A stretch of 64,000 nucleotides of DNA, taken from contig JAFGCI010000002.1 of NCBI GenBank assembly GCA_016932735.1, positions 1 through 64,000 on the forward strand, in the 5' to 3' direction. Position numbers and translations under genes: made by a program. Below the pieces are notes generated by a model. The model saw only the letters and a list, made by a program, of their open reading frames with translations. It ran no database searches and was not told the origin of the DNA. The DNA comes from Candidatus Aenigmatarchaeota archaeon. Its GTDB lineage: Archaea > Aenigmatarchaeota > Aenigmatarchaeia > QMZP01 > QMZT01. Shown piece by piece: positions 49,453 to 49,884 of this stretch; the stretch's first letter is position 1; every line of letters starts with the position of its first letter.

Positions 49453-49608
49453 ATGAATGTTGCAGGCTTATGCTCGATATGCGGGAAGCCTGCAAGACCA
49501 TCATTCGGCTGCAGGATGTGCGGCTCCATAGTCTGTTCTGAATGCTTTGATAAAGAATCCGGGCTCTGCAAAAGATGCAAAGCCGGAATGTTTAAGCAAA
49601 TTTATTAA
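49453..49608 (+). CDS. 51-residue protein with eight cysteines (cross-brace zinc finger)
   Basis: It reads ATG at 49453 to TAA at 49606-49608. Four CxxC pairs occur in order (CSIC, CRMC, CSEC, CKRC), enough for two zinc ions in a RING/B-box-like cross-brace. It starts five bases after the giant surface-protein stop, so it is in the same operon. It is too short for usual ORF cut-offs. It could be an adaptor binding the cytoplasmic tail or an RNA/protein-binding finger; function unknown. Confidence 0.75.
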   Translation: MNVAGLCSICGKPARPSFGCRMCGSIVCSECFDKESGLCKRCKAGMFKQIY

Positions 49609-49659: not shown

Positions 49660-49711
49660 ATATCCAAATGAGTGCCGGGATCGCATAACCTGGTAGTGCG
49701 CAGGACTGGAA

Positions 49712-49742
49712 AATCCGAAGATTTTGTTTCGGGATTCCCGCA
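49712..49742 (+). other. tRNA-Ser intron 1, canonical position 37/38
   Basis: 31 bases. CTGG (32-35) can pair with CCCG before the 3' exon with one mismatch, and AATCC with GGATT, giving a relaxed bulge-helix-bulge. Cutting between 37 and 38 leaves loop CTGGAAA. Confidence 0.8.
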
Positions 49743-49774
49743 ATCCTGTTTCCGAAAGGATATCTGGGTTCAAA

Positions 49775-49851
49775 TAAGCCCTTCTTTCTAAAGAAAGAAG
49801 CCCTTAAGGGGAAGAAAAGAGATTTCAAATAAAATGAAAAGGTTTTGAGAT
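49775..49851 (+). other. tRNA-Ser intron 2, in the T loop (59/60)
   Basis: 77 bases. The junctions form a full bulge-helix-bulge: CTGGG/CCCAG outer helix, 3-base bulge ATT, 4-bp TTCA/TGAG (one G-U), 3-base bulge AAT, then AAGCC/GGTTT. Cutting after the second base of each bulge restores the T loop exactly. The interior has an 8-bp CTTCTTTC/GAAAGAAG hairpin. Confidence 0.85.
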
Positions 49852-49884
49852 TCCCAGTCCCGGCGCTTCTTATTTTTAATATTA

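Follow-up and report, generated by a model that had tools for sequence, protein, structure and literature searches.

The window analysed here, a stretch of 64,000 nucleotides from an archaeal genome of 1.18 Mb (11 contigs, 90.6% complete), contains on its forward strand, at positions 49674-49865, a gene of 192 bp for tRNA-Ser(GGA) that is interrupted by two introns. The coordinates, read directly from the sequence, are exact. Exon 1 (49674-49711) provides the 5' half of the acceptor stem, the D arm and the anticodon arm to position 37, and is followed by a canonical 37/38 intron of 31 nt (intron 1, 49712-49742). Exon 2 (49743-49774) comprises position 38, the variable arm, the 5' half of the T stem and the T loop to A59, where a second intron of 77 nt (intron 2, 49775-49851) is inserted at 59/60, and exon 3 (49852-49865) supplies T60, the 3' halves of the T and acceptor stems and G73. 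The acceptor stem is formed by GCCGGGA/TCCCGGC and the anticodon stem by CAGGA/TCCTG, with an anticodon loop reading CTGGAA and, beyond intron 1, A. When the spliced 84-mer was submitted to ARAGORN, a tRNA-Ser(GGA) with all arms present was returned, that is, a normal mature tRNA. ARAGORN returned nothing for the unspliced gene or for the gene from which only intron 1 had been removed, and gave 0 matches on the whole window, while the Rfam tRNA score of the unspliced gene was 13.6 bits against a cut-off of 29, so that the gene is not called. Thus, the claims of the first-pass annotation that a 77-nt intron lies at 59/60 of this T loop besides the one at 37/38, and that the gene is hidden when the second intron is not recognized, both held. 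The finding that was to have refuted it, a second intact tRNA-Ser(GGA) gene, was not made in the 90.6%-complete assembly, where a further interrupted copy could score low.

Two side observations concern the surroundings of the gene. The sequence TTCAAAT recurs within intron 2 (49824-49830), where it is followed by AAAATG, either by chance or as a remnant of an earlier insertion. Closely upstream lies a short open reading frame for a cysteine-rich, zinc-ribbon-like product (MNVAGLCSICGKPARPSFGCRMCGSIVCSECFDKESGLCKRCKAGMFKQIY, 49453-49608, forward strand). A similar frame also seems to precede the orthologous tRNA gene of G001, a genome of the same genus (locus L025), and another, in G010 (L050), has its stop codon at a copy of the element described below.

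The ends of intron 2 can be drawn as a bulge-helix-bulge (BHB) motif, both strands of which read on the forward strand: the 5' strand (49764-49780) contains the T stem, TTCA, the bulge AAT and the inner helix strand AAGCC, and the 3' strand (49841-49857) contains GGTTT, TGAG, the bulge ATT and the T stem. The T stem (CTGGG 49764-49768 with CCCAG 49853-49857) is thus continued across the bulges AAT (49773-49775) and ATT (49850-49852) of 3 nt each, on either side of a central helix of 4 bp with one G-U (TTCA 49769-49772 with TGAG 49846-49849), and by an inner helix, again with one G-U (AAGCC 49776-49780 with GGTTT 49841-49845). This 3-4-3 geometry is that of the BHB with two 3-base bulges and a 4-bp helix predicted in the first-pass annotation. 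The combined score of the central and inner helices was matched by only 3 of 20,000 dinucleotide shuffles of intron 2 with the exons fixed, and the precursor fold containing the BHB was calculated at -62.5 kcal/mol against an optimum of -63.0, a gap of 0.5. The BHB at 37/38 was found by eye to be relaxed, with one mismatch. Of the features expected of a BHB intron, 3-nt bulges flanking a 4-bp helix are therefore present in the T-loop intron and only in relaxed form at 37/38, whereas a standard tRNA after removal, and a splicing endonuclease and a ligase encoded in the genome, are all in place. No group I or group II intron was matched by Rfam at gathering score in the window, or even at a weak threshold between 49500 and 50000; a known RNA family as the identity of the intron body was also discarded, no Rfam family being found in the window. 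It is very likely that intron 2 is genuine and is spliced, in the absence of RNA data.

The splicing endonuclease of this genome, a broad-specificity form of which the first-pass annotation had suggested looking for, is a single chain of 394 aa with three units, in agreement with the one chain of about 390 aa that defines the epsilon2 type. It aligns almost end to end (query residues 7-394, E 5.7e-106) with the ARMAN-2 enzyme (PDB 4fz2), and in the alignment the equivalents of Y236, H251 and K282, shown to be catalytic in ARMAN-2, and of Y160 and K161, which belong to the ARMAN-specific loop (ASL; PMC12397907), are conserved. That the genome possesses a broad-specificity endonuclease is inferred from these sequence features. 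Its relatives in named records are mostly from Candidatus Micrarchaeota and from records labelled Aenigmatarchaeota. An RtcB ligase is also encoded (E 7.2e-171). By homology, the transcript of a working tRNA-Ser(GGA) gene would lose both introns, with the epsilon2 endonuclease predicted to cut both BHB motifs and RtcB to join the exons.

The initial reading of the locus was correct, but it was too local. At least 11 tRNA genes of the same genome carry a 59/60 intron: splicing after TTCAAA with a BHB recovered ten of them, tRNA-Ser(GGA) included, and the eleventh (L019) was recognized by eye. The inventory is incomplete, as it is based on loci found with the Rfam tRNA model, among which ARAGORN identified only six distinct uninterrupted tRNA genes; the isotypes it assigned after such splicing are partly wrong because further introns remain, the tRNA-Ser(GGA) gene itself being named Pro. 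In the G001 orthologue the exons are nearly unchanged and the T loop is interrupted at the same point by an intron with a diverged body; the 37/38 intron is absent. The TGAG at the 3' end of intron 2 would pair with the near-universal T-loop bases TTCA, so that the same kind of intron could occupy almost any tRNA. Six further 59/60 introns in the same genome (L011, L012, L014, L015, L016 and L018; 39-72 nt) have no copy of the element described below, L014 and L018 having the text AAAGGTGTTCAGC in common, perhaps as a second intron family. The tRNA-Ser genes of G044 (L041) and G132 (L042) have T-loop introns of other composition (GTTGCATCAAGAAAG and GTTTCATCAAAA texts), and that of G132 also has a D-loop intron and apparently one in the anticodon arm.

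What the first-pass annotation missed is that the body of intron 2 is a copy of a structured element found across its phylum, the Micrarchaeota. The copy (49775-49820, forward strand) was scored at 67.4 bits (E 1.7e-10) by a covariance model built from 14 aligned copies (R1), to the training set of which it belonged, and at E 9.9e-9 by a second model built from 118 copies (R2). The element has two parts: a pyrimidine/purine hairpin and, 3' of it, a purine tail mirroring the purine strand of the stem. In the window the hairpin, P2, spans 49781-49800 (CTTCTTTC 49781-49788 with GAAAGAAG 49793-49800), and is separated by C.C mismatches from an outer helix, P1 (TAAG 49775-49778 with CTTA 49803-49806). 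The 3' strand at the stem base is complementary to two stretches, the 5' strand, as in P1, and the first part of the tail, with which it would give a mini-hairpin, P3 (CCCTTAAGGG, 49801-49810), having its 5' half in common with P1. The tail proper (GAAGAAAA, 49811-49818), the candidate third strand, faces 49781-49788 in parallel and fits at 7 of 8 positions, as read from the sequence with the register established across the copies. Among the 118 copies all 13 pairs change on both sides, the stem giving 281 covarying cells against 61 in shuffles, a value that none of 500 shuffles reached; the outer helix varies between copies while its structure is kept, and the P3 positions remain complementary through changes of C-G to G-C. 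In a subtype shared within the family of the window the loop is longer and includes AGCTGACGCTTC-like sequence (L017, L022 and L229 in the same genome, L225 and L231 in G001, L230-L239 in G003, a genome with 16 weak matches). The element is missing from many T-loop introns of the same genome, and is thus not needed for splicing there.

The wide distribution of the element was apparent when the gene was compared with 145 relatives by BLAST and stretches of intron 2, besides the exons, were matched in distant genomes. At E<=0.1, R1 gave matches in 75 of the 156 genomes searched for the class, a single genome having as many as 33; at E<=0.001, R2 gave them in 58 of 156 when the phylum was searched. 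Both sets, class and phylum, number 156 genomes, the search was confined to the phylum, and the E-values are rough, many copies being training sequences of R2. Copies occupy tRNA T loops, D loops, 37/38 and other tRNA positions, and are also found in 16S and 23S rRNA, just 3' of tRNA genes (L256, L286) and at stop codons. Within tRNA hosts 56 copies are in the sense and none in the antisense orientation; with shifted controls the counts were 6-11 sense and 0-2 antisense, and some of the 56 may accordingly be false. The automatic splicing followed by ARAGORN classifies mostly single-intron hosts, and left 87 copies unclassified, many of them visibly in tRNA or rRNA by eye. Copies within 16S or 23S rRNA genes, identified by eye only, were noted in G104 (L171, L277), G026 (L158), G126 (L218), G011 (L137) and G003 (L224, L230), and these are likely to be BHB introns.

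An open frame of 70 codons or more terminates close to the first base of the element, from 12 nt before it to 9 nt after it, in 36 of 180 copies, and the stop codon often coincides with the first three bases of the element. Such copies number 36 in the sense orientation against 7 antisense at the other end, and are unevenly distributed (12 of 17 in G091, 9 of 22 in G081 and 0 of 32 in G104). Those of G091 (L177, L183, L298-L307) have a common 3' end like GGCTCACTGGCGTTCGC, able to pair with the 5' TGAGCC, and apparently form a longer dispersed repeat, two copies being alike further downstream too. That the stop-codon copies are mRNA introns was rejected, since by eye the G091 flanks have no BHB and no continuing frame. 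As to how the element is inherited, nearly identical copies in different tRNA genes of G055 and outside tRNA genes in G013 suggest spreading, and places conserved between two species of one genus (L173, L180) suggest retention. A link with viruses was not supported, one exact degenerate pattern having been searched in viral contigs without a match.

The tail covaries with the stem. When the best of a small number of offsets was taken, 116 of 147 copies from 32 genomes had a mirror of 8 nt without a mismatch, whereas 1000 shuffles of tails and stems among copies averaged 32.6 such mirrors and never exceeded 47; with one copy per genome the value was 25.8 of 32 against 6.5 when shuffled. The mirror arrangement prevails over the same-sense one by 104:4. 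At a single offset, set by the stem geometry without fitting (by a geometric rule that had been read off the same copies before counting), A of the tail faces U-A in 962 of 1025 cases and G faces C-G in 214 of 280 in 149 copies, with an odds ratio of 66; 102 of the 149 copies match at all tested positions, against 0-17 when the offset is shifted by 1 to 3. Agreement stands at 89% within the stem and at 33% over the three bases past its end. When copies from one genome that differ in their stems are compared in pairs, concordance prevails by 594:14, counts that do not amount to a probability as the pairs are not independent. The link is not an artefact of the search, because the covariance model treats the tail as unpaired, and simple duplication was excluded as the origin of the tail, which is a mirror and not a direct or inverted repeat. 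There is very little doubt, therefore, that tail and stem covary at one fixed register. Complementary to the pyrimidine strand in parallel only, the tail is antiparallel to the purine strand, and its A lie on U-A pairs and its G on C-G pairs; this is the arrangement of purine-motif triplexes (R.R:Y; PMC6115336), shown here at the level of the sequence code only.

The likeliest cause of the covariation is a three-stranded RNA fold, an inference made without RNA data for which the case is only modestly stronger than the case against. In it, the purine tail would fold back along the stem as a third strand. RNA strands are reportedly excluded from purine-motif triplexes (Semerad and Maher 1994, known from its title as cited in PMC7515735), so that a minor-groove triple or a structure at the DNA level remains possible, and the energy models used cannot score triples. 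P1 and the inner helix of the BHB compete for the same bases, thus not all pairings form at once: the partner of the intron 5' end UAAGCC may be the 3' GGUUU during cutting or, afterwards, the CUUA of the element itself. Formation of P3 would free the 5' UAAGCC for the GGUUU that closes the BHB, and refolding may favour release of the intron or protect it once freed, the weakest step of the proposal. On this view, the copies found at tRNA trailers and at stop codons would be RNA-end elements. Coupling of the strand exchange to splicing, or a role in RNA-end protection, is a possibility to be regarded as hypothesis.

Taken as a whole, the best explanation is a spliced tRNA-Ser(GGA) gene with two introns, the second carrying a phylum-wide element with an inferred third strand, a reading considered likely (probability of approximately 0.68). 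The alternative that survives best, itself unlikely, is that of an ordinary BHB intron in which the covariation results from alternative folds, from a protein that reads tail and stem, or from contacts in trans, with no simultaneous triple. In its favour, CCUUAAGG-like palindromes could dimerize or fold into P3 in place of P1, two partners are available to the 5' UAAGCC, and purine-motif triplexes of RNA are thought to be unfavourable. However, complementarity of the tail to the pyrimidine strand exists in the parallel sense alone, which rules the tail out as a substitute for the purine strand in an ordinary duplex, and the register is fixed and stops where the stem stops. It is also unlikely that the element acts as DNA, as a small mobile element with an H-DNA-like mirror-repeat triplex that landed in tRNA genes and gene ends, the introns being copies that were kept spliceable. 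Purine mirror repeats are the classic H-DNA sequence, and the up to 33 copies per genome and the near-identical copies in G055 tRNA genes and in non-tRNA places of G013 would agree with this view. Against it, the orientation tracks transcription (56:0 in tRNA hosts, 36:7 at stop codons), the outer helix differs among copies with its structure preserved, and a Y1 transposase is absent from 7 of 14 genomes tested, five of which have at least 15 matches. An IS200/IS605 (PATE) origin was discarded on this absence, the genomes without the transposase including G081, G091, G109, G062, G076 and G055. That the gene is a pseudogene or a chance tRNA-like sequence, as its not being called unspliced by ARAGORN or Rfam might suggest, is very unlikely given the normal tRNA obtained on splicing, the orthologue of the same genus, whose exons are almost identical and whose T loop is interrupted at the same point, and the lack of an alternative tRNA-Ser(GGA) in the assembly.

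Returning to the element, a bolder reading, which could as well prove wrong as right, is that it represents a new kind of natural RNA structure, a dispersed three-stranded R.R:Y hairpin selectively maintained in Micrarchaeota, that uses a triplex code thought to be unavailable to RNA, in tRNA and rRNA introns, tRNA trailers and the 3' ends at stop codons, and that is coupled to a strand exchange freeing the intron 5' end for splicing. Should the inferred fold be right, RNA would here contain an R.R:Y helix shaped by natural selection, and the spread of introns, splicing and the protection of RNA ends in DPANN archaea would be tied to one module. The covarying element points to a third strand from sequence evolution alone. 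Independently of the fold, T-loop interruption of tRNA genes is large-scale in this Micrarchaeota lineage, and many such genes are missed by standard annotation.

No description of the element was found in the literature searched (on Micrarchaeota BHB introns, DPANN tRNA introns and RNA triple helices in archaeal introns), subscription journals being mostly outside the scope, so that novelty is unproven; it is nonetheless likely that the element is new, while intron 2 belongs, by position and BHB, to the known noncanonical tRNA introns. Of the latter, 673 have been recorded in 217 archaeal genomes, Thaumarchaeota included (PMC8450103), so that the statement of the first-pass annotation that they are known mainly from Thermoproteales and a few DPANN was too narrow, their occurrence being more widespread; multiple tRNA introns are also present in ARMAN-1 and ARMAN-2 (PMC4033280). 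The present introns resemble them in the BHB junctions, in the occurrence of several per gene, in the use of positions outside 37/38 and in the broad-specificity endonuclease, and differ in the repeated use of 59/60 within one genome and in a body that is a covarying, phylum-shared element. That different tRNA genes of a single genome carry similar introns recalls the transposition described in Thermoproteales (Fujishima et al. 2010, summarized in PMC4033280), but here the element is also found in rRNA introns, tRNA trailers and stop codons, and preserves its structure rather than its sequence. The endonuclease has the three-unit chain, the catalytic triad and the ASL Tyr-Lys of the ARMAN-2 epsilon2 enzyme (PDB 4fz2, 9w2k; PMC12397907), from which it differs by sequence divergence only. 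The telomerase pseudoknot and the ENE, which has two U-rich strands, are RNA triple-helix elements; with them the element has in common an inferred third strand along a stem, with the polarity of a minor-groove pseudoknot loop, whereas it is built of purines in two of its strands and pyrimidines in the other, with an A/G code that is base-specific. Finally, it has the purine mirror repeat and the R.R:Y code of H-DNA-forming mirror repeats (GAA/TTC; PMC7515735) but, unlike these, it is a single-strand hairpin with a tail, oriented with transcription.
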